Source of the DNA: an uncultured Verrucomicrobiota bacterium | GTDB lineage: Bacteria; Verrucomicrobiota; Verrucomicrobiia; Opitutales; Opitutaceae | DNA: 49,169 bases | Direction of reading: 5' to 3' | Assembly: GCA_903960515.1 (NCBI GenBank) | Contig: CAJCBL010000164.1 | Coordinates: 1 to 49,169 of the forward strand | Part shown: positions 4,641 through 17,292 of the stretch, piece after piece | Numbering within the stretch: position 1 is the first letter of the stretch | Layout: each line of letters begins with the position of its first letter | Notes under the pieces: model-generated | What the model was told of the DNA's origin: nothing | The model's database searches: none | Seen by the model: the letters and a program-made list of their open reading frames with translations, nothing else | Made by a program: the position numbers and the translations under genes

Positions 4641-7451
4641 CTACGCCTTGCCCGCCGCTACGTCCTCGGCGGCCGGTACGATCACCGCCGCGAGGGCTTC
4701 GCGCAGGGCGCGCAGGCGCTCGGTGCCCTCGACAGGCTCCTGGTTGGTGCTCTCGACATAGAAGGTGTCGATGGCGATGCCGCGCTCGGTGCCGATGCGC
4801 GCGAAGGTGATGTCGAAGCCGTGCTCGAAGATCACTCGGGCCATGCGGTAGAGCAGGCCGATTTGATCCTGTGCTTGGATCTCGATGATGGTGCGCTTGA
4901 GGTCGAGCTCGTGGTAGACCTCGACCACCGGGGGCACATTGCTGTGCAGGGCGCGCTCCTCCACGGCCAGGCGGCCGGCGCGCACCTTGCGGGCTTGGGT
5001 GAGGATCTCGGGCATGAGGTCCTTGTTGTGCACGAGCGCGTCCTCCACCGACTTGCTGAATACATCCAGGGCGCCGCGGTTTTGCACCGGGCCGCGGCCG
5101 GGCTCGACGACATGGAAGGTGTCGATGGCGATGTGGTCGGTGCGGGAGATGACCTTGGCGCTGAGGATGTTGAGGCCGGCCACGCTGAAGGCGCCGGCAA
5201 GGCGGTAAAAGAGGCCTGCGCGGTCCCAGGTGACGACGTTTACCACGGTGAGGGAGCGGTTGAGATCGTCCTTCCACTCGATCATCGGGCGTAGGGAGCC
5301 TACGGAGTCGGCGGCGTTGATGGTGGAGAGCAGGCGGTTGACCATGCCCAGGTGCAGCACGATCTCGTCGGGGGCGGTCTGTACGAAGTAGCGCTCCGGC
5401 AGCAGGTTGAAATGCGCTGTGATCTCGTCGGCGCTTACGCCGGGGACTTTTTGGGAGATGAGGTCGCGGTGGAGCATGGCTTTGCGTTCGGCGTTGCGTT
5501 GATCGGCGGCGGCTTGGCCGAGTGTGAGGCGTTCGGCGGTGCGATTGAAGAGGGTGGAGTGGAGGGTGTTCTTGTAGCTGTTCCAGAGTTCCGTCGAGGT
5601 GCCGCGGGCGTCGCAGAAGGTGTGGACGTAGAGGAAGCGGAGCTTCTCCACGTCGCCCACCAGTTCTGCAAAGCGAGCGATGGTCGCCGGGTCGTCGAGA
5701 TCATGCTTCTGCCAGAAGCGTGCCATCGCCAAGTGGTGGCGGATAACAAAGGAGACGATCTCGCAGTTTTTGGGGTCGATGCCTAGGCGCTCGAGGATGG
5801 GGCGGGCGAGGTGCACCCCGGACTCGGCGTGGCCCTGGATGCCGATGCCCTTGCCGATATCGTGCAGCAGCAGAATGAGATAGAGCAGTGTGTGGTCCTC
5901 GCACTGGTGGAGGATGTCGCGGTAGCGGCGCTGCATCTCGGACTCGGCGGCGTAGATGGAGTCGAGTTCGCGGATTGTGCTTAGCGTATGGATATCGGCG
6001 GTGTAGCGGTGGTAGAATTCGTGCTGCACCAGGCAGTTGAGTTGCTCGAATTCGGGCACGAAGCGGCCCAGTATCCCCAGTTCGTGCATGAGCAGGAGGG
6101 TGGGGTGCACCCGGCCGGCATCCTGGAGGATGGTCTTGAAACTCTCGATGGCACCGGGGGCCTGCAGCACCGCGGCGGTGCAGAGCGGGGCGGAGGCGCG
6201 GATGAGCGACTGGAGTTCGGGGTCGGGGGCGCACTCAAGCTGCTGGCAATGGCGGAACACGCGGATGAGCCGCTCGGGGTCCTCGCTGAATACGTCGGGT
6301 TTCTCGGAGGAGAGGCGGTTGCCGCGCAGGACGAAGCCGTCGAGGCTTTTGGTGCGTTCGGTGCGCCGGGAGCTGAGCAGGGCACGCAGAGAGAAACGGT
6401 TGGCCTCCGGGGCCTCAAGGGCGAGAGCCAGGCGGTCCTCCACGATCTTGGAGATGCGATACACCGCCTGGGCGTGCCGGTAGTAGTCCTGCATGAATAC
6501 CTCTACGCGCTCGACAAAATCGGCGGCCAGGTAGCCCAGCCCGAGGGCCACGCGGGGCTGGTTGTCGAGGTTCAGCAGGTCGTTGGGGTGCTGGGTCACA
6601 TAGTGCAGCTCGTGGCGGGTGCGCAGCAGGAAGTCGTAGCCGCGCTGGAAGTCGCGCAACTCCTCCTCGCGCAGGTAGTTTTGACCCTGCAGCTCTTCCA
6701 TCTTCTCGATACCCAGTTTCACCCGGGCCATCCAGAGGGTGTTCTGGTAGTCGCGCAGGCCGCCCACGCCGTTCTTGATGTTGGGCTCCTGGAGGAAGAC
6801 GGTGCCGCCGTTCTTTTCGCGACGCTCCTTCTGGTCCTGCAGGCGCACGGCGATGTATCCGCGCGGATCCTCCTTCTGGTAGTAGGCGCGATAGGCGGTG
6901 CGGAAGTTCTCATACACCTGGGGCGAGCCGGCGAGCAGGCGCGACTCGAGCAGGGCGGTCTTGGTCTGCATGTCCTTGCGCGCCTCGGCGAAGGCCTCGT
7001 CGACGGTGCGCGTGGAGTGGCCCACCTTGAGGGCGCAATCCCACAGCAGGTAGAGCAGTTCCTGTGTGAGGAATTCCTGGAAGGGCTTGAGCACCTCGGG
7101 CTTCACGCCCGCCGGGTAGAGGAACATCAGGTCGACATCGCTCTTGGGGCAGAGTTCGCGCCGGCCGTAGCCGCCCAAGGCCAGCACGCTCACGGCCACG
7201 GGCAGTTCGCCGGTGTGGGAGCGTCGCCAAGTGTCCATGGCGAAGTCGAAGAGGTGTTCGATCAGGGCGTCGATCTCGGTGGCGCGCGCCTGGGCGATCT
7301 TCACACCGCCCTCGCCGCCGCGGTGGCGTCGCAGGATCTCCTCGTCCACGTGCTTGAGAAATCCCTTGGCCGCCACCAAGCGCTGGGCCACGGGCATGTC
7401 GGCTGTGAAAACGAGACGTTTACGGGCGTCCTTGAGAATTCCTCGGATCAT
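4641..7451 (-). CDS. glnD: Bifunctional [protein-PII] uridylyltransferase / uridylyl-removing enzyme
   Basis: GlnD senses glutamine and adds UMP to, or removes it from, PII proteins, which control glutamine synthetase and nitrogen regulation. The 936-residue protein shows the full domain order. The nucleotidyltransferase signature G-G-Y-G-R-R-E-L lies at 93-100, followed by S-D-V-D-L with the metal-binding aspartates at about 105 and 107. An HD phosphohydrolase motif L-L-H-D-I-G-K-G (about residues 527-534) supplies the uridylyl-removing activity. Two C-terminal ACT domains lie at about 730-795 and 852-905, each with a D-R/Q-x-G-L-F/L-Y-R-x-A core. E. coli GlnD is about 890 residues, so the length is normal. 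No glnB or glnK lies nearby. It is a stand-alone transcription unit converging on the LRR gene. Confidence 0.97.
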   Translation of the reverse strand: MIRGILKDARKRLVFTADMPVAQRLVAAKGFLKHVDEEILRRHRGGEGGVKIAQARATEIDALIEHLFDFAMDTWRRSHTGELPVAVSVLALGGYGRRELCPKSDVDLMFLYPAGVKPEVLKPFQEFLTQELLYLLWDCALKVGHSTRTVDEAFAEARKDMQTKTALLESRLLAGSPQVYENFRTAYRAYYQKEDPRGYIAVRLQDQKERREKNGGTVFLQEPNIKNGVGGLRDYQNTLWMARVKLGIEKMEELQGQNYLREEELRDFQRGYDFLLRTRHELHYVTQHPNDLLNLDNQPRVALGLGYLAADFVERVEVFMQDYYRHAQAVYRISKIVEDRLALALEAPEANRFSLRALLSSRRTERTKSLDGFVLRGNRLSSEKPDVFSEDPERLIRVFRHCQQLECAPDPELQSLIRASAPLCTAAVLQAPGAIESFKTILQDAGRVHPTLLLMHELGILGRFVPEFEQLNCLVQHEFYHRYTADIHTLSTIRELDSIYAAESEMQRRYRDILHQCEDHTLLYLILLLHDIGKGIGIQGHAESGVHLARPILERLGIDPKNCEIVSFVIRHHLAMARFWQKHDLDDPATIARFAELVGDVEKLRFLYVHTFCDARGTSTELWNSYKNTLHSTLFNRTAERLTLGQAAADQRNAERKAMLHRDLISQKVPGVSADEITAHFNLLPERYFVQTAPDEIVLHLGMVNRLLSTINAADSVGSLRPMIEWKDDLNRSLTVVNVVTWDRAGLFYRLAGAFSVAGLNILSAKVISRTDHIAIDTFHVVEPGRGPVQNRGALDVFSKSVEDALVHNKDLMPEILTQARKVRAGRLAVEERALHSNVPPVVEVYHELDLKRTIIEIQAQDQIGLLYRMARVIFEHGFDITFARIGTERGIAIDTFYVESTNQEPVEGTERLRALREALAAVIVPAAEDVAAGKA

Positions 7452-7613
7452 GGCAGGTGGGCAGGATAACGGGGTATTGGGCCGGTTGAGCCAATCAAAT
7501 ATGTGGGAGCGCTGGGCCGCCTATGGCAGCGGCTCGCCCCGGGAAATTAACTACCCGAGCTTGGCCCGGATGGTGCTAAACGGTGCCGGACCTCCCGAAA
7601 CCCGATTTCCTGC

Positions 7614-7895
7614 ATGACCCGACCACTCGACAGCCGGCAGTTGCTGGCCTTTGTCTGTGCTGCCCGGCGACTGAGCTTTACGCTCGCCGCCCATGATCTG
7701 CATCTCACCCAGAGCGCCATCAGCCATGCGATGCGCGCCTTGGAGGAGGATCTGGGCTGCCTGCTGTTTGCCAGGGTGGGGCGCTCGGTGCAGCTCACCG
7801 GGAGCGGCGAGCGGTTTTTGCGAGAGGCCGAGCGCATTCTGGGCGAAATGGAGCAGGCCCGGGCGAGCGTGTTGGTCGGGGCCGGCGCGGAGTAG
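7614..7895 (+). CDS. Truncated LysR-type regulator: DNA-binding domain only
   Basis: The 93-residue product is a clean LysR-family winged helix-turn-helix: L-D-S-R-Q-L-L-A-F, then L-T-Q-S-A-I-S-H-A-M-R-A-L-E and the wing L-F-A-R-V-G-R. The linker helix (about 65-85) is present, and the frame ends immediately after it. Full LysR proteins are about 300 residues with a periplasmic-binding-protein-like effector domain. I could not find that domain in any forward frame of the following 300 bases. It is either a functional HTH-only regulator, which could still dimerise through the linker helix, or the 5' remnant of a gene cut by mobile-element activity, since a transposase and an IS relic follow. 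The reading frame itself is intact. Confidence 0.7.
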   Translation: MTRPLDSRQLLAFVCAARRLSFTLAAHDLHLTQSAISHAMRALEEDLGCLLFARVGRSVQLTGSGERFLREAERILGEMEQARASVLVGAGAE

Positions 7896-8140
7896 GCGCG
7901 GGGTGCCTCGGGTTGTTCTGTCAAGAGAGGGCTCCATACCCGCACTTGGTCGTACACCATCTCGCTGCGGCTACCGGTCTGCTCTCTAGTGCCTAAGCCG
8001 ATACCCCCGCCGGCACTCGCGCCGCCTCCTAGAGCGGGTCCACCCTTGGCATCGCGCACACCGATCACCGCCACGGGCAGGTGGGCGAGGTGAGTGCTAG
8101 ATCCGTTGCGGGCGCTCGCCTATGGCTCCGGAGAAGGGGA
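7896..8140. other. Intergenic stretch, no gene recognised
   Basis: About 245 bases separate the LysR stub from the transposase palindrome. I looked for the missing LysR effector domain and found no similar segment. A minus-strand frame here reads into the LysR gene antisense and has no family resemblance. Confidence 0.4.
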
Positions 8141-8162
8141 CAGGTCGGAAATTTTCGACCTG
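8141..8162. repeat. Near-perfect palindrome upstream of the transposase
   Basis: The sequence caggtcg / gaaatttt / cgacctg has 7-bp perfect arms (8141-8147 and 8156-8162). The central 8 bases are also self-complementary apart from one G-T pair, so the whole 22 bp can fold. It ends 29 bp before the transposase start. REP-associated Y1 transposases recognise palindromic sites of this kind, so it may be a cognate REP-like site. That link is inference from position. Confidence 0.6.
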
Positions 8163-8191
8163 AGCCCGGTAGTGAGTAACCTGCGGGCGTT

Positions 8192-9175
8192 ATGAGGCTG
8201 GGGCGTATCAAGGTTTCGCCTGAGGAGGGGCCGGCAGCCTACCACTGCATGACTCGGGTGGTGGCGGGGGAGCGCCTCATCGACGACCCGGCAAAGGAAA
8301 TCCTGCGACGCCAATTGTGGCTGGTGGCGGAGTTTTGCGGGGTCGAAGTCCTCACCTACGCCATACTCAGCAACCACTTCCACATCCTGGTTCGCGTGCC
8401 GCAGAAGACCATCCCTTCGGATACCGAACTGCTGCGTCGCTACAGACTGCTTCACCCCAAACCTACCAAGTACCAGCAGGCGCGAATCGAGGTCATCGAG
8501 GCGCAGTTGGAGGCCGGCGGTCCCGAGGGCGAGTCGTGGCGGCGTCGCCAGTTAGCGCTCATGGGTGATGTGTCCAATTTCATGAAACTGCTCAAACAGC
8601 GTTTCGCCATTTGGTTCAACAAGGCCCACCGGCGCTATGGCACCCTCTTTGCCGAGCGCTTCAAATCCGTATTGGTGGAGTGCGCCGGCAACGCGCTGCG
8701 AACCATGGCCTTCTACATCGACCTCAACCCCGTGCGCGCCGGCCTAGTCACCGATCCCAAAGACTACCGTTTCTGCGGCTACGGCGAGGCCGTCGCAGGC
8801 AATGCAACCGCCCGAGCAGGACTTTGCCAAGTACATGGCGGGAAGTGGCAACAAGCCCATGCCGCGCACCGTATCGGACTGTTTGGCACCGGTTCGGCCC
8901 CTCGCCGCTGCGGGACCACCATCGCCCCGACGGCCTTCGCCGAAGTGCTGAGGCAAAAGGGCCAACTGCCTCTTTCCACGGTGCTGCGCTGCCGGGTACG
9001 CTACTTCACCGATTCGGCGGTGCTCGGTTCGCAGGCCTTTGTCGCCCTGCATCTGGCCGCGTATCGGCACCGCTATGGTGCTCGCCAACGCAGCGCTCCC
9101 CGTCCGCTCCAGCCCATTACCGATTGGGGCGGCCTCACGGTGCTGCGGGCCTTGCGCCACAGCCCCTTCGGGTAG
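8192..9175 (+). CDS. REP-associated (IS200/Y1-like) transposase
   Basis: This 327-residue protein belongs to the Y1/HUH single-strand transposase superfamily (REP-associated type). The opening Y-H-C-M-T-R-V-V is characteristic of the first beta strand. The metal-binding H-x-H is seen as N-H-F-H-I-L-V, with H62 and H64. The conserved segment R-Y-G-T-L-F-A-E-R-F-K-S (about 148-160) and Y-I-D-L-N-P-V-R-A-G-L (about 178-188) follow. The exact catalytic tyrosine cannot be assigned with confidence by eye. The length exceeds minimal IS200 TnpA (about 150 residues) and fits the larger REP-associated group, which is usually single-copy and domesticated. No terminal repeats bound it, and it abuts an IS1182-like relic. 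The frame is complete. Confidence 0.9.
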   Translation: MRLGRIKVSPEEGPAAYHCMTRVVAGERLIDDPAKEILRRQLWLVAEFCGVEVLTYAILSNHFHILVRVPQKTIPSDTELLRRYRLLHPKPTKYQQARIEVIEAQLEAGGPEGESWRRRQLALMGDVSNFMKLLKQRFAIWFNKAHRRYGTLFAERFKSVLVECAGNALRTMAFYIDLNPVRAGLVTDPKDYRFCGYGEAVAGNATARAGLCQVHGGKWQQAHAAHRIGLFGTGSAPRRCGTTIAPTAFAEVLRQKGQLPLSTVLRCRVRYFTDSAVLGSQAFVALHLAAYRHRYGARQRSAPRPLQPITDWGGLTVLRALRHSPFG

Positions 9176-9249
9176 TTTGCCAGATGAAAGGCTGAAACGG
9201 GGGCGAAACGGAGCCCGCGATTTGCTATATATATACCACTGGCGGATCC

Positions 9250-9920
9250 AGATGGGTCGGAAATCGGGTGAGTCTGGCAAGAAACCCTGCGGGCTCGAGG
9301 CCACCCCGCTTGGCGCTGCTCCGGATCCTACGGTGCAATATAACCGCACTGATCCGGAAAGCAGCACCATGAAAGCCGGCAGCGGGCAGCACTTCGATCA
9401 GGCCTATGGTGCGCAAGTCGCAGTGAATAGGGCGGTGTTGATCGTGGGCAATGTTAAGTTTGCGCACCACCGACAAGCCGGAGTGGGAGCCAACGGAGGC
9501 CTCGAATTCGCCTGTGGTGCGTGTTTAACTGGATGCGGACATCAACAACAGACTCCCATGGCGAAGCTTCCGTGGCCGCGGGGCAATGGAATATGACCAT
9601 ACATCGGCTGGCCTGGGCCTATATTCTGCCGCAGAAAAAGCATCCCATCAACACGGTCGTAGTCGACTTGCTGCACCAGCCTGAACCCCGCCAAACCGGC
9701 CCTTACTCCGCCGCTAAATAGCAGATACCGCACCGGCTCAAGACGGCTATTGTAGGCCCATTACGGGTCGCCCACGCAAACCGTCGAGCTAGCGTTCGGA
9801 GTAATCAAGGAGGCGAACTGCTTCCCTCGGTTTAGCCTGCGAGACCGCGCGAGAGTTCCGCCAGAATCGACCCCGGTATGAGTGAGCTATAACCTCAAGA
9901 GGTTCTTCACGCTCAGAACA
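9250..9920 (+). pseudogene. Decayed IS1182-like (DDE) transposase, C-terminal half
   Basis: No single open frame covers this stretch, but consecutive segments in shifting frames read as an IS1182-family transposase in the correct order. First, near 9336, comes Q-Y-N-R-T-D-P-E-S-S-T-M-K followed by H-F-D-Q-A-Y-G-A-Q-V-A-V, matching the family's YNFTDPES-MK and QAYNAQ-AVD block. After a frame change near 9463 comes T-D-K-P-E-W-E-P-T. After another near 9545 comes D-S-H-G-E-A-S-V-A-A. From 9756 the frame gives Q-T-V-E-L-A-F-G-V-I-K-E, the family's TVEP-FG-IK motif. After an in-frame stop the segment Y-N-L-K-R-F-F-T-L-R follows (to about 9918). The N-terminal half is missing and the intact Y1 transposase sits in its place. 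Boundaries are approximate. Confidence 0.8.
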
Positions 9921-10093
9921 CGGGCCGCCGCCGCGTAAATGCGGGCGAATGCGCCCCTCAATTTCTTCCAATACCCAAATAGCAAAGGCGACGGCCTCGA
10001 CGCGAGGACTGGCCCGAGTATAGCGCATCCTTTATATGGTGTTTAGGCTCATAACCGGGCGGATCCGGTTCTCACCGGCGGCAGCACGGTTTT

Positions 10094-10113
10094 CGCAGTC
10101 CGATAGGTTGTTA
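10094..10113. repeat. Probable terminal inverted repeat of the decayed IS1182-like element
   Basis: The reverse complement of this 20-mer matches the sequence at 49040-49059 in 15 of 20 positions, including a shared core TCGGACTG. It lies about 175 bp downstream of the last recognisable transposase motif, where the right end of the element is expected. I take it as the surviving outer end of the relic. Confidence 0.55.
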
Positions 10114-10658
10114 GGCTCCATTGTGTTCAGCGATTTGGGCTTTTGGGGACTCGGCCACGAGATGTTGAGAGGCACTGCGTGGCCATTTGGTGGACGATTT
10201 CGGAGACCTGTGAAGGGCGTTTTGTTGGGTCTTTCGCTAGGACTTGGGGTGTGGTGTGAGCTTGGGGGCGTGGACTAGCGAATGATTGGGACGGTAGGGG
10301 CGAGATGATACGGTTAGTATGCGCGGGGCGGAGAAGCAGTGAAGTTCCCGTGGCTCGGTCGCCCGTGTAGTGGGGTGCCTGCCGCCAGCGAGGGCTCCAT
10401 CGATGGACTGTTGCCCAGTCTTGGCCTTTGCCTGCAAGCACGAGAAGGCGAACGCCCATAGCCCAGAGCGCGAGTGAGCGCAGGCGAGGTCGACGGGAGT
10501 GCTGGCTTGGGGAGCGGCTCGGCGGCTCCTCAGAGTTTTCCATGGGTAGGCGCTGACGGGGACGCCCCCTGCGCGCAGGGCAGTGCGGAGTTCGTTTTTG
10601 CCCTGAGTGATCCCTCGACTCGCACGCCAGTTTGGTGTCCGCTGCAGGGTTTCAGCCT
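10114..10658. other. Gene-poor stretch between IS relic and HIT gene
   Basis: About 545 bases with no convincing gene in any frame. One hairpin, ggccacg (10153-10159) with cgtggcc (10178-10184), is visible and could be an intergenic repeat unit. No second copy of it was found in this window. Confidence 0.4.
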
Positions 10659-11000
10659 ATGGCCAAAACCATTTTCGAGAGAATTGTAGACCGGGAGATC
10701 CCCGCCCGCATTGTCCATGAGGACGAGCTTTGCCTCGCCATCCATGACATTCAGCCGCAGGCGCCGGTGCATGTGATCGTGTTCCCCAAGCGGCTGATAC
10801 CGCGCTTGGCCGAGGCCGCGACCGAAGATAAGGCGCTGCTGGGCCATCTGCTGCTCACCGCCGCCGCCATCGCCCGGGACTTGGGGCTGGTGCAGGGTTT
10901 TCGCGTGGTGATCAACAACGGGCCGGACGGCGGAGAGTCGGTGCCGCACCTGCATATCCATCTTCTGGGGCGGCGTGCCCTGGCCTGGCCCCCGGGCTGA
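10659..11000 (+). CDS. HIT-family nucleotide hydrolase (Hint/PKCI type)
   Basis: The 113-residue protein contains the histidine-triad motif P-H-L-H-I-H-L-L-G, with H97, H99 and H101 positioned to form the catalytic triad. The preceding N-N-G-P-D-G-G-E-S-V loop is typical of the Hint branch. The N-terminal T-I-F-x-R-I-V-D-R-E-I-P-A is a second family hallmark. Hint enzymes hydrolyse AMP-linked phosphoramidates such as aminoacyl-adenylate derivatives, and the physiological substrate in bacteria is usually uncertain. The ATG at 10659 is chosen because homologous proteins begin at MAKTIFERI; the nine codons before it are not conserved in character. It ends 74 bp before the J-like gene of the Hsp70 operon, so co-transcription is possible. 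Confidence 0.95.
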   Translation: MAKTIFERIVDREIPARIVHEDELCLAIHDIQPQAPVHVIVFPKRLIPRLAEAATEDKALLGHLLLTAAAIARDLGLVQGFRVVINNGPDGGESVPHLHIHLLGRRALAWPPG

Positions 11001-11074
11001 GAACCAGCCATCCCCAGCCGATTATTGCATAGTTGTTGCCCGCCGTCGTGGTCTTCACCCATTTTCCCACAACA

Positions 11075-13897
11075 ATGTCCGACGATTCTTCCGCCATAGA
11101 GGGAGCAGAGGGGCCCGGCGCTGCGCCAACGCAGCCTCGGGACTCTTGGCCGCCGCTTTTGGCCGCCGCCTCGGCGACGTTGTATTTTGGAAATCCATTC
11201 CGCCGTCTTGGTCTTTCACCGCTGGCGGGGCCGCGCGAGGCCACTCGTAGGCTTGAGCAGTTGAGGCTCTCGATAGAGTTGGGGGCAGCGGATTTTGGCT
11301 GGGCTTTCGCGCCCAACCCGGTGCCGGCAGGGGAGCAGTTGCGCGAGTCGGCTCAAGTCCTCAAGGACACCCAGGATAGGCTGCTCCACGAGCTGTTCTG
11401 GTTCTGGCCCGCCAGCTATCCCGCGGAGGGGGCCGATGTGGCGATGACGGCGCTGCTGGCCGGCGATGCCGACACGGCCTTTCTTCATTGGCAGAACGCG
11501 GCTGCCGCCGGGCAGATCGTGGCCGTACATAATCTGGCCATCTTCCATCACCTCGTGGCGCTGGAGGGCGAGCGAGTAGGCGCGCCCATAGAGCAGGAGA
11601 CGATGGAGTGGTGGAGGGCGGCCATCGGCCAGTGGCAGCAGGTGTGCGAGAGCGACGAATTCTGGGAGCGCCTGAGCATGAGGGTGCGGCTCCTGGCCGA
11701 CGCGCGGGTGCCGGCCGAGTTGCCCTCGCTGATCCGGGCCACGTTGCCAGCGGCCTGGTGCGGTATCCACGCTTCTTTGGCGATTGCCCGGGCCAAGAAG
11801 GCTCAATGGCACGAGACCTCGGCTCATGTCGCTTTTGCGCGCCAGGTGCACACTGAGCCCGGGCGGGCAGAACGTGCGCTGGAGGGAGCCATCGCCCAAG
11901 TGGTGCAGGGCCTCGACTTGGTGGTGCGCGACAATGCACGGCGCCTCAACGGCGACGGCTCGGCGGGCCTCGCGCTCACCGCCGCGCTGCTGGCGGAGGC
12001 AGCCGACGAGCTGGAGCTGATCGAGACGGTCTGCGGGCGCGAATCGGAGGTCTACCGGGAAGTGAGTACCCGGGTGGTCGATGCAGCGCTGGAGGGCGTC
12101 ATCTCCTACCAGCGCAGCACGCTGGACAGTTGCGGGGTGCTCCCCTGGCTTACTCATCTGACTACGCTGGCGGCGTCGCCCGAAGTGCGTCGCCGGTTGG
12201 AGGACACGGCGGACATACTCCACAGCAACGCCATCAGCGAGAAGCTGCCCCCGGTCGATCCCAACGAGGACCCCGCCGCCACCGAGCTGGCCGAGTTTGA
12301 GGCCGGCTACCTCCTGTTGCTGGAGGAGTTTGTGCCCGGGGCTGTGCGGCTCAACCTGGGCGAAAGGGCCCGGGCTGAATACATGACCAACGTGCGCCGC
12401 GCGCTGCGCGAGCTGGCCCATGCGGCCTGCTATCAGTTGGAGCATTTCGATCTGGCTGCCCGAGCCCTGGCCTCCGCAGCCGATATCTCGGAGGGGGCCG
12501 AACACGAGGCACTGCTGGCCGAACGCGAACTGCTGCTGGTCGAGATCGGGCGCCGCAAGGCGTGCCGACAGGTTGCCGAGGACGCCCGGGCAGCCTCCGA
12601 GGGCGAGCCTGTGTCCGATACTGTGGCATCCGAAGCGCCCCCTGCCGAGCCCGAGACCGTGCCCGGGTTGGAGGCGATGGAGTTTGTGCCGGAGCCCGAG
12701 CTGGAGTCCGAGTTGCCATCCGTGAGCGAGGCTGAGTTGGCGGCGGGGCAGGTATCCGATCCGACAACCGATCAGACGGACTCGAGCGAGCCCCAAGCAG
12801 CAGCAGACGAGCCTGCAGCGGAGCTGGAGGTAGCCGAGGGCGTAAGGCAGCCGGTATCCGAACTCGAAGCTGAGCCGGCACCCGCACCGGAGCCCGAGCC
12901 TGCGGCTGAGCAGCCCTGGATGCAGCCGGAAGCCGGGGCCCCCGCAGCCGAGCCCGAGCAAGCGCCGGCACTCGAGCTGGGGGATCAGCCCCCCTCAGCG
13001 GACGAGCCTGCAAACTTGGCGGAAGCGCCCGAGTCGCCTTTTCCCGGCGACGCTCCCGACCCGGGAGTTGCGGATCTCCCCGGAGTGGCGGCTGCGCACA
13101 GCGAGGCGGCCCCGATGGTATTGGGTAATCAGGTGCAAAGCGAGCTGCCGCTCTGGCAGGATGAGCCGGCGCAGCCGGCCGAGCCCGAAGCGGCCGCCCT
13201 GGCCGCGGCACCGGGTACGCCCGAAGCGCCGATCGATGGCGAGACCGGAGCGCCTGTGTCCTCCGAGGCCGTACTTGGCGCGCCCGAGCCAGCCTCGTTG
13301 CGGGCCTGGGGCTCCGACCAGATGCGCTACGAGCACAACGGACACCTGGTCGAGATCAACCCGACCCGGCTGGTCTTCGACACCTGCACCCTGCTGCCCG
13401 AGGAGATCACCGGTTTGCGCTACGGGGTGGTGGATGTGGATACTCCGGAGGGGGTGGTGCGCGCGCACCGCATCGACTGGTGCGACTCGGGCACGGTGGT
13501 GACCCTCGACGAGACCAATTTGTTCGCCGGCGATGCCGAGATGGCAGGCCGCCACTACAACCTCATCCTGGAGGTGATCTACGGCGTGGCCGTGCCCGGG
13601 CTGATCGTGCGCATGGTCGAGTGGGTCCAGCGCGGTGAGAGCGTGCCTCTGGACGCGGCCCGGTTGCGCGGCGAGGGTTTTGCCTTTTCGGGAAGGACTT
13701 TCCACTGGCCATCCGAAGCCACGGTGCCTTACTCGCAACTCCTGCATACGCTTGACGGAGGAGACCTCGTGGTGACCCGGTCCGGCGAGGAAACCCAAAC
13801 CGAACGCTATCCCCTTAACGAAGTCTGGAACGCGGCCATCGTTGGCCACGTGATCGACGCCTTGGCCAACAGCACCCCCACAAACCAAGAAACATGA
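11075..13897 (+). CDS. Large J-like protein of the Hsp70 operon
   Basis: The product has 940 residues and no signal peptide. Residues about 35-112 resemble a degenerate J domain: N-P-F-R-R-L-G-L-S-P near the start and A-Q-V-L-K-D-T-Q-D-R-L at the end match helix I and helix IV patterns of DnaJ. The HPD tripeptide that stimulates Hsp70 ATPase is absent. Residues about 115-500 are helical and TPR-like. A Glu/Pro/Ala-rich linker (about 502-742) leads to a C-terminal beta-rich domain (about 743-925) containing paired Trp/Tyr/Phe-rich strands. The stop overlaps the next start (ATGA), and the operon continues with GrpE-like and Hsp70 genes, so a co-chaperone role is likely. The start MSDDSSAIE is preferred over an upstream in-frame start codon at 11033. 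Confidence 0.75.
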   Translation: MSDDSSAIEGAEGPGAAPTQPRDSWPPLLAAASATLYFGNPFRRLGLSPLAGPREATRRLEQLRLSIELGAADFGWAFAPNPVPAGEQLRESAQVLKDTQDRLLHELFWFWPASYPAEGADVAMTALLAGDADTAFLHWQNAAAAGQIVAVHNLAIFHHLVALEGERVGAPIEQETMEWWRAAIGQWQQVCESDEFWERLSMRVRLLADARVPAELPSLIRATLPAAWCGIHASLAIARAKKAQWHETSAHVAFARQVHTEPGRAERALEGAIAQVVQGLDLVVRDNARRLNGDGSAGLALTAALLAEAADELELIETVCGRESEVYREVSTRVVDAALEGVISYQRSTLDSCGVLPWLTHLTTLAASPEVRRRLEDTADILHSNAISEKLPPVDPNEDPAATELAEFEAGYLLLLEEFVPGAVRLNLGERARAEYMTNVRRALRELAHAACYQLEHFDLAARALASAADISEGAEHEALLAERELLLVEIGRRKACRQVAEDARAASEGEPVSDTVASEAPPAEPETVPGLEAMEFVPEPELESELPSVSEAELAAGQVSDPTTDQTDSSEPQAAADEPAAELEVAEGVRQPVSELEAEPAPAPEPEPAAEQPWMQPEAGAPAAEPEQAPALELGDQPPSADEPANLAEAPESPFPGDAPDPGVADLPGVAAAHSEAAPMVLGNQVQSELPLWQDEPAQPAEPEAAALAAAPGTPEAPIDGETGAPVSSEAVLGAPEPASLRAWGSDQMRYEHNGHLVEINPTRLVFDTCTLLPEEITGLRYGVVDVDTPEGVVRAHRIDWCDSGTVVTLDETNLFAGDAEMAGRHYNLILEVIYGVAVPGLIVRMVEWVQRGESVPLDAARLRGEGFAFSGRTFHWPSEATVPYSQLLHTLDGGDLVVTRSGEETQTERYPLNEVWNAAIVGHVIDALANSTPTNQET

Positions 13898-14421
13898 ACG
13901 ACCCCGGAATGATGCAGCTGCTGTTGGCGGCCGACCCCAAGCAGCTCGCGAAGTTTCCCGAAATCCCCTTTGCGAAGGCGATGGGGGAGGTGCAGGCCCT
14001 CAAGAACGCCACCGCCGCTGCGGCCGCTTCGCCGACCGCGCCAAGCATGTCCGGGATCGAGCCGGTGGATGCCCTCGGCTCATCCATCGCCGCTCTGGCC
14101 ACACATATTTGGCGCGCCCGGACCCGTATGGTCGATCCCAAGACCGGAGCGCCCCGTGAGGAAACCCGCCGTCTGTATCGGCACATCGAGGGTGCGCTCG
14201 AGGTCTTCGCCTCCATGGGCGTGCGCCTGAGCGACTGGGCCGACCAGCCCTACGACGCCGGCCTGCCCGTCAAAGTCCTTTCGTTCCAGCCGACTCCAGA
14301 TATCTCTTGCGACACGGTCATCGAGGCCGTTCGCCCCGCCGTATTCTGGCAGGACCGCCTCCTTCAGGTGGGCGAAGTGATCGTCGGCATCCCGCAAACA
14401 TCCTCCAATAAACTACCGTGA
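13894..14421 (+). CDS. Putative GrpE-like nucleotide-exchange factor of the Hsp70 operon
   Basis: The 175-residue protein has a disordered Ala/Pro N-terminal part (to about 52), a long helix (about 58-115) and a compact beta tail. The tail reads L-S-D-W-A-D-Q-P-Y-D-A-G-L-P-V-K-V-L, then V-I-E-A-V-R-P-A-V-F-W and L-L-Q-V-G-E-V-I-V-G. That order (helix, then a small beta domain with an R-P-A turn) matches GrpE proteins in general layout, though sequence identity to classical GrpE is low. The start overlaps the previous stop (ATGA), and the stop overlaps the GTG start of hsp70, so all three are almost certainly translationally coupled. The function is inferred mainly from position and fold pattern. 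An alternative is an unrelated adaptor. Confidence 0.6.
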   Translation: MNDPGMMQLLLAADPKQLAKFPEIPFAKAMGEVQALKNATAAAAASPTAPSMSGIEPVDALGSSIAALATHIWRARTRMVDPKTGAPREETRRLYRHIEGALEVFASMGVRLSDWADQPYDAGLPVKVLSFQPTPDISCDTVIEAVRPAVFWQDRLLQVGEVIVGIPQTSSNKLP

Positions 14422-16910
14422 GCAGAACAACCATCGACTACGGCATCGACCTCGGCACGACGAACAGCTCCATCGCTGTCGCCTCCGGAACGGGCACCGA
14501 GATCCTCAAGAACAACCTTGAGGCCGACATCACCCCGTCTGCCGTGTACATCAACCGCAACGGCAACCTCTGGGTCGGCCACAGCGCCCGCTCCAAAATC
14601 GGCGACGAACGCGCCGAGGGCGATCTGCACCTGGAGTTCAAGCGGCGCATGGGCACGGGCTTCGAGTATGCCTTCCGCGCCAGCGGCCGCCGGATGCGCC
14701 CCGAAGACCTCTCGGCCGAGGTGTTGAAGTCGCTTCGTGGAGACGTTGCCCAGAAGCGCAACGAGCAGATCTCAGCGGCCGTAATCACCGTGCCGGCCGC
14801 CTTCGAGCTGCACCAGTGCGAGGCCACCAAGCGCGCCGCCGAGCTCGCGGGTTTTCGCACCGCCCTGCTGTTGCAGGAGCCCGTGGCAGCCGCACTGGCC
14901 TACGGGTTCCAGCGCGTAGAGGCCAAGGCCTACTGGATGGTATTCGACTTTGGCGGTGGCACCTTCGACGCCGCCCTCATCCGCTCGGAGGATGGCACCA
15001 TGAGCGTGGTCAACCACGGAGGTGACAACTTCCTGGGCGGCTCCGACATCGACTGGGCCATCGTCGAGCAGCTCCTGGCCCCGCGAGTGGCCAAGGAGTT
15101 CGGCGCCCCCGATTTCCGCCGCGGTGTCGAGCGTTACCGCTACGATCTCATCCGCCTGAAGGCCGCCGCCGAGGCCGCCAAGATCGATCTCTCGCGCCGC
15201 GAGGCCACGCTGGTCGAGGCCACGTTGCGTAATGTAGCCGGTGAGATGGTCACTTTCGAGACCGAGCTCACCCGGCAGGATATCACCCGGGTGGCTACGC
15301 CGATCATCAACAAGGCCGTGACCATCGCCCAGCGCGTGCTTTCCGAGAAGGACCTCGGGGCTGCCGCCGTCGAGCGCATGATTTTCGTGGGCGGGCCCAC
15401 CCTGGCGCCGTATTTCCGCGCCATCGTCAAACAGCGCCTGGGCGTGCCCTTCGATTTCAACGTCGACCCGCTCACCGTGGTGGCCCGCGGAGCCGCCGTA
15501 TTCGCCAGCACCCAACGCATCGCCGCCGCACCCTCCGCCAAGGCGCCGCTGCGCACCAACCGTTTCGGCTTCGAGCTGCTCTACAAGCCGGTGGGCGCCG
15601 AGCCCGATCCGCTGGTGGGCGGCCGCATCACCGTGCCCACAGGCGGCACCGTGGTGGGCTATTCCCTTGAGGTGATGAACCAGCAGAGCAAGTGGCGCAG
15701 CGGCAAGATCACCCTCAACGAGAGCGCGGCCTTCCAGCTCAACGTGCGCGCCGAGAAGGGCATCCAGAACGTATTCGTCCTCGAGTTGCGCGACCCCACC
15801 GGCACCCTGTGCGAAACCGAGCCGGCGGAGTTCAACTACACGATGGGCATGGTCGTAGACGAACAGCCGATCATCAACAACGTGGGCGTGGCCATGGCCG
15901 ACAACCGCCTGGGCGTGCACTTCACCAAGGGCCAGAGCCTGCCCGCCAAGAGCACCCGCACCTACCGCACCGCCGTGGGCGTGCGCCGGGGCGAGTCGGG
16001 CAACGTGCTGCGCATCCCCATCGTCGAGGGCAACCGCGACCTGGCCGACCGCAACATCCTCATCGGTTCCCTTGAGATCACCGCCGAGAAGGTCAAACGC
16101 GACATCCCGGCCGGCTGCGAGATCGAGGTCACCTTCGCCATGGACGCCTCGCGCATGCTCAAGGTGGTCGCCTATGTGCCCCTCCTCGACGAGGAGTTCC
16201 CCTCCAAGATCGAACTGGGCGGCAAGGTGCGCCAGCCCGACGTCGCCATGCTGCGCGCCGAGTGGGCGCGCGAACGCCGCCGCCTCACCACACTCAAGGA
16301 GAACCAGCATCTCGCCGACGCTCAGACTGTGCAGAAGGCCATCCAGGAACACGAGACGTCGGCCTTGACTCAGGAGATCGAGGCCATCCTCGGCCACGAG
16401 AAGGCCGAGTTCGATGCACTCCTGCGCGTGGAGCGCGAGATACTCGATTGGAAGATCCGCCTCGACGAGATCGAGGATCGCGCCACCTGGCCGTCGCTGG
16501 TCAAGGAGGTCGATGTGAAGCTCACCGAGCTCGACACCCTTGCTCTCCAGAATGGCACGACAGAGGAGAAGGCCCGCTCCCGCACCCTGCGTGAGCAGGT
16601 CGCCGTCCTCATCGGCGAGAAGAATGCGATCCGGCTGCGCACCAAGAAGGCCGAGGTCGAGGACGTATCCTCCGCGATCCTCTTCCGGCAGACCGCCTTC
16701 TGGGTGAATCATTTCGACGCGCTCGTGGCCTGCCAGTCCCAGATGAGCGATGCCGCCCGCGCCCAGGAGCTGGTTCTCCAGGGCCGCGCCGCTGCGGAGC
16801 AGGAGAATGTAGTAGCCCTCAAGGAGGTGGTATTCGGCCTTCAGGACCTGCTGCCGCAGCAGGCCCTCGAGGAGGTGCAGCGCGGCTACGGCTCGGGCGT
16901 CCTCGGTTGA
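14418..16910 (+). CDS. Hsp70-family chaperone with extended C-terminus
   Basis: This 830-residue Hsp70-family ATPase starts with GTG. The actin-fold ATP-binding motifs are intact: phosphate-1 loop D-L-G-T-T-N-S-S (11-18), phosphate-2 loop V-F-D-F-G-G-G-T-F-D (175-184), and adenosine motif I-F-V-G-G-P-T (about 321-327). The linker motif I-T-V-P-A-A-F (about 119-125) and E-P-V-A-A-A-L-A-Y-G are present. After the nucleotide-binding domain (about 1-375) comes a divergent substrate-binding region (about 380-570), then an unusually long helical, Glu/Lys-rich tail (about 600-830). Canonical DnaK is about 640 residues, so this is a specialised paralogue and not the housekeeping dnaK; the genes around it are not classical dnaJ and grpE. 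Confidence 0.92.
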   Translation: MSRTTIDYGIDLGTTNSSIAVASGTGTEILKNNLEADITPSAVYINRNGNLWVGHSARSKIGDERAEGDLHLEFKRRMGTGFEYAFRASGRRMRPEDLSAEVLKSLRGDVAQKRNEQISAAVITVPAAFELHQCEATKRAAELAGFRTALLLQEPVAAALAYGFQRVEAKAYWMVFDFGGGTFDAALIRSEDGTMSVVNHGGDNFLGGSDIDWAIVEQLLAPRVAKEFGAPDFRRGVERYRYDLIRLKAAAEAAKIDLSRREATLVEATLRNVAGEMVTFETELTRQDITRVATPIINKAVTIAQRVLSEKDLGAAAVERMIFVGGPTLAPYFRAIVKQRLGVPFDFNVDPLTVVARGAAVFASTQRIAAAPSAKAPLRTNRFGFELLYKPVGAEPDPLVGGRITVPTGGTVVGYSLEVMNQQSKWRSGKITLNESAAFQLNVRAEKGIQNVFVLELRDPTGTLCETEPAEFNYTMGMVVDEQPIINNVGVAMADNRLGVHFTKGQSLPAKSTRTYRTAVGVRRGESGNVLRIPIVEGNRDLADRNILIGSLEITAEKVKRDIPAGCEIEVTFAMDASRMLKVVAYVPLLDEEFPSKIELGGKVRQPDVAMLRAEWARERRRLTTLKENQHLADAQTVQKAIQEHETSALTQEIEAILGHEKAEFDALLRVEREILDWKIRLDEIEDRATWPSLVKEVDVKLTELDTLALQNGTTEEKARSRTLREQVAVLIGEKNAIRLRTKKAEVEDVSSAILFRQTAFWVNHFDALVACQSQMSDAARAQELVLQGRAAAEQENVVALKEVVFGLQDLLPQQALEEVQRGYGSGVLG

Positions 16911-16926
16911 GCCGTTGGCCTTTATC

Positions 16927-17292
16927 ATGGCTGAACCCGCCAGTGATACTCTGGAGACTACGTTGCGCCTGATGCAGGCGCTTTGCCTCGCGCGCCGCGG
17001 TCGGTTTCGCGAGGCACAGGAGGAGGTGGCCCCCGGAGGCAATCCGCCCGCCGACCTGCTGTCGCTGCAGGCCCTGGCGGCACTGGCGACCTTCGCCGGC
17101 GACTACCGCAGGGCCTTGCCGCTGTGGCGGCAGATCCGGGTTCTCGAGCCCGAGAACGTGGAAGCCCTGCGGATGGTGCGTGCAATCGAGCTGTGGCAGG
17201 CGCGGCCGGCGTGGATGAAGTGGTTGTGGCCAATGCTTGGAGGCGCGGTGGGCTTGGTGCTGCTCGTGGTGCTGCTGATGGTGTTTGTGTGA
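16927..17292 (+). CDS. Small TPR-like tail-anchored protein ending the Hsp70 operon
   Basis: The 121-residue protein has two helical pairs of TPR character (A-R-R-G-R-F-R-E-A-Q-E and A-G-D-Y-R-R-A-L-P-L-W). These are followed by a strongly hydrophobic segment at the C-terminus (about residues 98-121) preceded by a positively charged or Trp-rich boundary. This is the layout of a tail-anchored membrane protein with its soluble part in the cytoplasm. It starts 16 bp after the hsp70 stop, so it is in the same operon. It may bring the chaperone to the membrane, which is inference. A TTG at 16915 is an alternative start; the ATG at 16927 is preferred. Confidence 0.75.
   Translation: MAEPASDTLETTLRLMQALCLARRGRFREAQEEVAPGGNPPADLLSLQALAALATFAGDYRRALPLWRQIRVLEPENVEALRMVRAIELWQARPAWMKWLWPMLGGAVGLVLLVVLLMVFV

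Follow-up and report, generated by a model that had tools for sequence, protein, structure and literature searches.

A stretch of 49,169 nucleotides from an uncultured Verrucomicrobiota bacterium of the family Opitutaceae (GenBank assembly GCA_903960515.1, contig CAJCBL010000164.1, positions 1 to 49,169 of the forward strand; referred to here, at its full length, as the window) carries four adjacent genes, which we call J, E, K and T. Their products are predicted to work as a dedicated, inner-membrane-tethered Hsp70 machine whose classical trigger, the HPD motif of a J protein acting on R167 of its Hsp70, might have been replaced. In favour of this reading, the J-like protein and the linked Hsp70 differ together over distant bacteria, HPD being lost from the one and the HPD-receiving residues from the other, while the Hsp70 keeps its ATPase residues and the set keeps a GrpE partner. 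Changes on both sides of the usual switch between J protein and Hsp70 suggest a different way to run an Hsp70 machine.

All four genes lie on the forward strand and, judged by their layout, form a tight operon: gene J (11075..13897, ATG start, relatives in 17 other loci) encodes a J-like protein of 940 residues, gene E (13894..14421) a GrpE-like protein of 175, gene K (14418..16910, GTG start) an Hsp70 of 830 and gene T (16927..17292, ATG start) a TPR-like, tail-anchored protein of 121. The J/E overlap is ATGA at 13894, the E/K overlap is GTGA at 14418 and T starts 16 bp past the end of K, all as an earlier sequence-only reading of this DNA had claimed. An alternative upstream TTG start for T is possible at 16915; several relatives begin near the ATG position. 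Because the 5.5-Mb host genome encodes a canonical DnaK and one GrpE elsewhere, along with two J proteins that bear HPD, the operon represents an extra, dedicated set.

Loss of HPD in J and of its receptor in K

The sequence-only reading had described J as a J-like protein without HPD, and the profile comparisons agree. An alignment of J residues 28-118 with 14 relatives, compared by hhalign with 31 HPD-bearing J domains, gave a probability of 89% (E 2.4e-6, for a single comparison), as against a maximum of 2.5% in 50 column shuffles and 0.2% for the reversed profile. The match defines a J-like domain at residues 35-107 (11177..11395), in which the AlphaFold2 model of J (overall predicted local distance difference test score, pLDDT, of 71.0) places helices at 41-45, 53-69, 86-97 and 99-107, that is, where they are expected. 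On profile comparison and predicted helices, this part of J would have the J-domain fold, helices I to IV.

The HPD position is occupied in the window protein by ELG, residues 68-70 (11276..11284). Across the 15 aligned J proteins the tripeptide is ELG in ten, ELD in two and QLG, ALG or EMN in the others, never HPD; Glu stands first in 13 and Leu second in 14. HPD occurs nowhere in the window J, and the single HPD string found among its 17 relatives (in locus L017) lies N-terminal to helix I. By its sequence J would thus be classed as a pseudo-J (type IV) protein. The divergence is such that Pfam DnaJ is matched by none of the 15 J proteins and that the window J, like the window E, has no Pfam family at E up to 1 and nothing useful in NCBIfam; the J profile found four DnaJ chains among nine weak PDB matches (E 0.5-1.3), and four unrelated chains came at lower E. 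The full J model, searched with Foldseek, retrieved mostly TPR and other helical-repeat chains (best E 0.0028, none under 0.001) that cover the solenoid only. No J-domain chain is among the matches listed, which the solenoid filled, so that the J-like part went untouched by this search.

K was compared, as 15 proteins from the related clusters, with 30 Hsp70s of the phylum (mostly the best Hsp70, a DnaK, of each genome) and with DnaK and HscC of Escherichia coli; the K of L030 is cut by a contig end and was counted only for sites in the nucleotide-binding domain (NBD). The description of K as an Hsp70 stands (Pfam HSP70, E 8.3e-70). Its ATPase domain spans about residues 5-366 (14430..15515), and the catalytic residues D8, G10, N13, K70, E171, T199 and D201 are intact in 15 of 15 K proteins. 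A substrate-binding beta domain, about residues 490-600 (15885..16217), is recognised as a second HMMER domain to DnaK (i-Evalue 9.8e-8).

The crystal structure of DnaK with DnaJ shows HPD in touch with R167, Q378 and L391 of the linker, with its Pro in contact with P419; the J domain, by its positive face, is drawn to DnaK residues E206, D211, E217 and D477 (PMC8215388). In the window K the DnaK positions R167, E206 and Q378 are L150, R189 and F362. R167 is Arg in 29 of the 30 controls, with one gap; in the 15 K proteins the site holds Leu (4), Ser (2), Pro (7) or Glu (2). Q378 is Gln in all 30 controls and Phe (14) or Tyr (1) in K. The E206 site, Glu in 27 controls and Asp in three, is reversed in charge in K (Arg 10, Lys 5), and E217, Glu in all 30 controls, is never Glu in K. 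In this alignment the J-docking residues R167, Q378, E206 and E217 are lost from every one of the 15 K proteins, which sets K apart from the DnaK type. The sequence-only reading had argued that a J protein without HPD must use another trigger or serve for binding only; that inference is strengthened by the absence from K of the HPD-receiving residues, a loss that other divergent Hsp70s share.

The linker itself is altered. Between DnaK columns 380 and 399 lie 124-133 residues in all 14 full-length K proteins, as against 20 in two DnaK controls and 22 in HscC. In place of the short DnaK-type linker, the alignments indicate a conserved domain of about 105 residues between the ATPase and substrate-binding domains (residues 368-479 as cut; 15519..15854), with a mean column identity of 51% over 12 aligned members (L130 and L169 were left out). 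The insert has no PDB match by sequence; its weak Pfam matches are to CarboxypepD_reg in 6 of the 12 (best E 0.0029) and to Big_6, a bacterial immunoglobulin (Ig) family, in 4 of the 12 (best 0.00073), from which an Ig-like fold can only be guessed. In a small tree of NBDs the K proteins form a clade of their own (support 1.000), with HscC as the nearest branch (support 0.85, long branches).

K ends in a tail with the motif RGYGSG (16881..16898), similar in 12 of the 13 K proteins compared; L130 lacks it and, by eye, so does L169. These two also lack T in the available stretch, and L028 has the tail and no T. The tail is not the best-conserved C-terminal part of K, its 8-mer mean being 0.68 as against 0.73 at residue 806.

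The remainder of J consists, in the model, of a TPR-like alpha-solenoid (residues 122-509, 11438..12601; mean pLDDT of ten-residue blocks 75-95), a long linker in which Glu, Pro and Ala abound (residues 512-739, 12608..13291; for the most part with a pLDDT under 50) and a beta-rich C-terminal domain of fair model confidence (residues 741-932, 13295..13870). The J of L029 has X in its translation and was excluded from the structure alignment.

GrpE partner, membrane attachment and recurrence

By several comparisons E is a GrpE homologue, as had been proposed from the sequence alone. The E profile matched that of 31 canonical GrpE proteins by hhalign with a probability of 95.3% (E 2.3e-8 for one comparison), whereas 50 column shuffles reached at most 1.1% and the reversed profile 0.3%. 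Run over the 372 genomes of the order, the E profile gave 23 weak matches, 21 of which are the canonical GrpE of their genome according to the GrpE profile. Pfam GrpE is matched by 3 of 11 E proteins at E up to 0.1 (best 0.0017), and the E profile found no match of note among PDB sequences. With the AlphaFold2 model of E as query, the top six Foldseek matches among 350,542 solved chains are all GrpE (E 0.024-0.41), and the seventh is unrelated (3.7). VIA-align likewise puts five GrpE entries in the lead (Z 5.0-5.8), with an unrelated entry next at 4.8, so that this comparison is weak when taken alone. The GrpE-type C-terminal beta head is recognised at about residues 110-166 (14221..14391), both in the hhalign alignment and in model strands at 143-165. 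Ahead of it, where a GrpE would have its long N-terminal dimerisation helix, the model offers separate helices at 26-41, 60-79 and 89-107, the part up to residue 60 being of low confidence.

T has TPR matches below the Pfam cut-off only (best E 0.00095) and nothing useful in NCBIfam. Its predicted transmembrane segment (17233..17289) has a mean hydropathy of 2.91 over 19 residues, and the protein ends there; its description as tail-anchored and TPR-like is upheld. The chain ends at the hydrophobic segment in the window and in L024, and the other T proteins carry further residues, often Pro-rich. A T gene belongs to 11 of the 14 complete clusters, and each of its products has a hydrophobic 19-mer of 1.92 or more; the maxima in 30 soluble Hsp70s and in the GrpE set, which served as baselines, are 1.5 and 1.32. 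In L130 and L169 a membrane segment appears in E instead (2.16 and 2.72; the J of L169 reaches only 1.64), these divergent E proteins being longer, at 299 and 349 residues. A hydrophobic segment lies within J in L018 (both copies), in L019 and in the partial clusters L029 (2.19) and L030 (2.22). Because the anchor shifts between subunits and yet is predicted in some subunit of 13 of the 14 complete clusters, these segments suggest that membrane attachment itself is needed.

The recurrence of the gene order across Verrucomicrobiota and beyond, which the sequence-only reading had left to be checked, was found. A search for J among genome contigs yielded eight loci, five from Opitutia or other Verrucomicrobiota, one from an Acidobacteriaceae genome, one from a bin named Proteobacteria and one on a Rhodospirillales fragment; one further carrier is a plasmid of the Bacteroidota (Haliscomenobacter, L130, NC_015512.1). 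The closest named relative, judged by the window J, is an Opitutaceae bin at 71% identity. When loci from the contig scan were pooled with those from whole-genome and plasmid searches, the full order J-E-K-T was present in the window and in L016, L017, L018, L024-L027, L127, L128 and G287 (the last in pieces), J-E-K without T in the available stretch in L028, L130 and L169, and partial clusters cut at contig ends in L029 (J-E) and L030 (J-E-K). A GrpE-like gene is present in every cluster where the DNA after J is available, and the proteins of relatives with the order J-E-K(-T) are 22-88% identical to those of the window.

Among 288 genomes of the phylum, J occurs in 6, E in 8 (5 of them strong matches) and the K-specific insert in 6, and all three occur together in the same 5. 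Outside these five genomes the matches comprise one weak J (G017), three weak E proteins, two of them canonical GrpE, and one divergent cluster (G193). Strong matches to E number 5 in the 372 genomes of the order. The gene set is rare and patchy and is retained as a unit. Given the recurring order J-E-K(-T), and the presence of J, E and the K insert in the same 5 of 288 genomes, it is not a product of chance.

Some of the clusters have irregularities of their own. The J gene of L017 (5117-7107) is split into two overlapping open reading frames (ORFs) in different frames, through a frameshift or a sequencing error; the divergent J-E-K cluster of L169 (in G193, 5390-11344) has a J that is apparently split over the overlapping frames 5390-5677 and 5632-7758; and L018 (545-3832) has two tandem J genes before E-K-T, each with its hydrophobic segment near the C terminus. 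The surroundings of the window operon are ordinary: by Pfam, a HIT protein is encoded before J and a phosphoglycerate mutase after T, and the G+C content is 66.8% in the operon as against 65.9% in the window. Upstream of the cluster (8192-9175) lies a gene of the IS200-like Y1 transposase family (Pfam E 1.5e-7).

A proposed machine and the explanations that compete with it

In the mechanism that we propose, K would bind and hydrolyse ATP and hold a client in its substrate domain, and J would dock on K by way of the J-like domain, the solenoid or both and present the client. Hydrolysis would be set off by a contact in which both the ELG loop and the inserted linker domain take part, in replacement of the arrangement of HPD, R167 and linker, and E would exchange the nucleotide, releasing ADP from K. 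T, which might grip the RGYGSG tail of K, or another anchored subunit would keep the complex at the membrane. EEVD tails and TPR clamps offer a comparison for a K tail with a TPR protein as its neighbour, and it is by this analogy that we put forward the grip of T on the tail as a hypothesis. More tentatively, and with a low probability in our estimate, the clusters might represent a class of Hsp70 machines apart from the others, the trigger made of HPD, R167 and linker having been exchanged for one in which the J-like domain is of the ELG type and its Hsp70 target has a beta-rich, perhaps Ig-like, linker domain, and in which the anchor subunit varies with the lineage, being mostly a TPR protein that grips the RGYGSG tail in the manner of the eukaryotic EEVD.

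Several observations weigh against a replaced trigger at the membrane. The joint loss of HPD and its receptor is also expected if J and K make no J-type contact at all. Part of the docking surface persists, P419, the contact of the HPD Pro, being retained in 14 of 14 K proteins (at the N415 site 12 of these have Gly and two Asn). The 30 controls are mostly the best Hsp70, that is the DnaK, of each genome, and when six other divergent Hsp70 paralogues of the phylum are considered (two in L022, two in L160 and one each in L161 and L162), five of the six lack R167 and five of the six lack Q378; E206 is turned to Arg in L161 only, and the second copy of L022 keeps R167. Receptor loss would thus accompany divergence generally, and its link to HPD loss is suggestive, not proven: by itself it is no proof of a swap coupled to HPD, because these other paralogues share it. 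The model of E is of low confidence (pLDDT 62.7), with no Foldseek match under E 0.001. One complete cluster, L028, has no T in the available stretch, and its J, E and K show no clear membrane segment. The hydropathy cut-off is soft, as a peak of 1.99 occurs in the window J within the folded domain at its C terminus. Our confidence in a dedicated, tethered machine with a replaced trigger had stood slightly higher and was lowered, to a level at which we find the case evenly poised, because the divergent paralogues also lose R167 and Q378.

Two of the loci just named deserve a description of their own. L022 (G000:C157, 6347-10947), in the same genome as the window, consists of two adjacent divergent Hsp70-like genes of 616 and 917 residues. 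In L160 (4348-11537) and L161 (6465-10560) the phylum has further GrpE-Hsp70 clusters. Their Hsp70s, one or two per cluster (537-561 residues), lack R167, and HPD is absent from the large proteins linked to them; this may be another case, independent of the first, in which HPD and R167 are lost as a pair. The J-likeness of these large proteins is only 53.7% (L160) and 2.3% (L161), and no claim made here rests on them.

The main rival to a new trigger is that J does not trigger at all. J might instead be a pseudo-J scaffold, its solenoid joining K and client without setting off hydrolysis, and K might be a slow ATPase that acts as a holder or assembly switch and is reset by E. The absence of HPD from all 15 aligned J proteins and of the receiving residues from K would suit such a scaffold, and Pam16 is a known pseudo-J domain that is unable to stimulate Hsp70 ATPase, according to a 2026 review (PMC13254874). 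Distant members, however, have largely kept the J-like domain and the ELG position, beyond what a bare scaffold would need, and the GrpE-like protein in each cluster with DNA available after J suggests real cycling of nucleotide; we regard the scaffold as possible, with a probability well short of even. That K might be served by the housekeeping DnaJ and GrpE, with the linked J and E being unrelated membrane or assembly proteins, appears very unlikely to us: canonical DnaK and GrpE and two HPD-bearing J proteins are indeed available in the genome, but E is GrpE-like by several tests, the DnaJ-docking residues are lost from K, and the few genomes that have J are the ones that also have E and the K insert, 5 of 288 sharing all three.

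The operon might also be a conflict (defence) or damage-response module whose sensor or switch is a chaperone core, comparable to the published theme of HSP70, GrpE and a DnaJ or TPR protein with a GAP1-N2 GTPase (PMC7159879). Its rare and patchy spread would fit such a role, and one copy, the only one with clearly defence-like neighbours among the flanks scanned, is the divergent J-E-K of the Haliscomenobacter plasmid (L130, 188-16315), which is followed by a kinase-AAA protein (PADLOC matches to mad6, PD-T4-6 and IetA) and TerB and is flanked by SIR2-EAD11, WD40 proteins and BrxL. PADLOC further matched its Pycsar effector models to a cyclic-nucleotide-binding protein next to L017 (E 4.8e-18) and its DpdF models to a helicase near L129 (E 1.3e-160). 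These scans covered part of all the flanking and linked proteins of the relatives, ten with PADLOC and ten with Pfam. Against such a role, PADLOC found no match for any of the four window proteins, and Pfam assigns the L129 helicase to a RecQ architecture, the mad2 match of L018 to a MetW-type methyltransferase and the mad3 match of L017 to an ABC transporter; in the Pycsar-model match of L017 it sees a cyclic-nucleotide-binding domain, and in the other flanks scanned a histidine kinase, a nitroreductase and an HDOD response regulator. No GTPase family was found by Pfam among the 17 window ORFs scanned, although GAP1 itself was not searched for. A defence role therefore seems improbable to us, if less so than service by the housekeeping partners.

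Comparison with known Hsp70 systems

We found no account of the cluster and no assigned function for its homologues in the open-access literature, and both J-like and GrpE-like folds are supported, so that the proposal of an undescribed system, which the sequence-only reading had tied to these points, holds. As far as was found, the cluster is real, conserved and undescribed, and it is a variant of the Hsp70/J/GrpE kind, not a new kind. New here, as read from the sequences, are the apparent loss of the HPD receptor in K and the conserved linker domain, alongside a J without HPD. The 2026 review treats changes to HPD as loss of function, with HPE as the only replacement held to be tolerated, and calls it enigmatic whether HPD-less J proteins are accidental or selected (PMC13254874). 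With the clusters described here this open question becomes directly testable with few proteins, and the answer would tell whether the allosteric change of an Hsp70 can be set off in the absence of HPD.

The closest described case is that of HscC of E. coli, a specialised Hsp70 whose dedicated J partners, DjlB and DjlC, are tail-anchored and have their genes nearby (PMC8215388). K and HscC are 32% identical in the NBD, yet DjlB and DjlC carry HPE where the window J has ELG; HscC retains R167, Q378, E206, E217 and N415 and has no insert; and no annotated GrpE gene lies beside HscC within a 16-kb stretch. By these sequence features K does not appear to be an Hsp70 of the HscC type with HPE-bearing J proteins. 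The DnaK-DnaJ-GrpE system is made up of proteins of the three kinds that J, E and K represent, K has retained the ATPase residues tested, and its NBD is 33% identical to that of E. coli DnaK; the window set differs in having neither HPD nor an HPD receptor and in its extra linker domain, its TPR membrane partner and its encoding in one operon.

Pam16 (Tim16) of the mitochondrial import motor provides a precedent for an HPD-less J fold in an Hsp70 machine that is bound to a membrane (PMC13254874), a location that is predicted for the machine described here. Pam16 pairs with the HPD-bearing Pam18, whereas no HPD partner was found in the window cluster and the Hsp70 itself is altered. The GAP1-N2 GTPase systems resemble the operon in combining an HSP70, a GrpE and a protein with DnaJ or TPR parts (Kaur et al. 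2020, PMC7159879); as a whole they have been suggested to act near the membrane and have been reported from verrucomicrobia as well (PMC7159879). They differ in the GTPase, which has no counterpart among the window ORFs scanned, and in that their HSP70/GrpE theme is predominantly one of actinobacteria and firmicutes, the passages that describe it mentioning no change to HPD or linker (PMC7159879).

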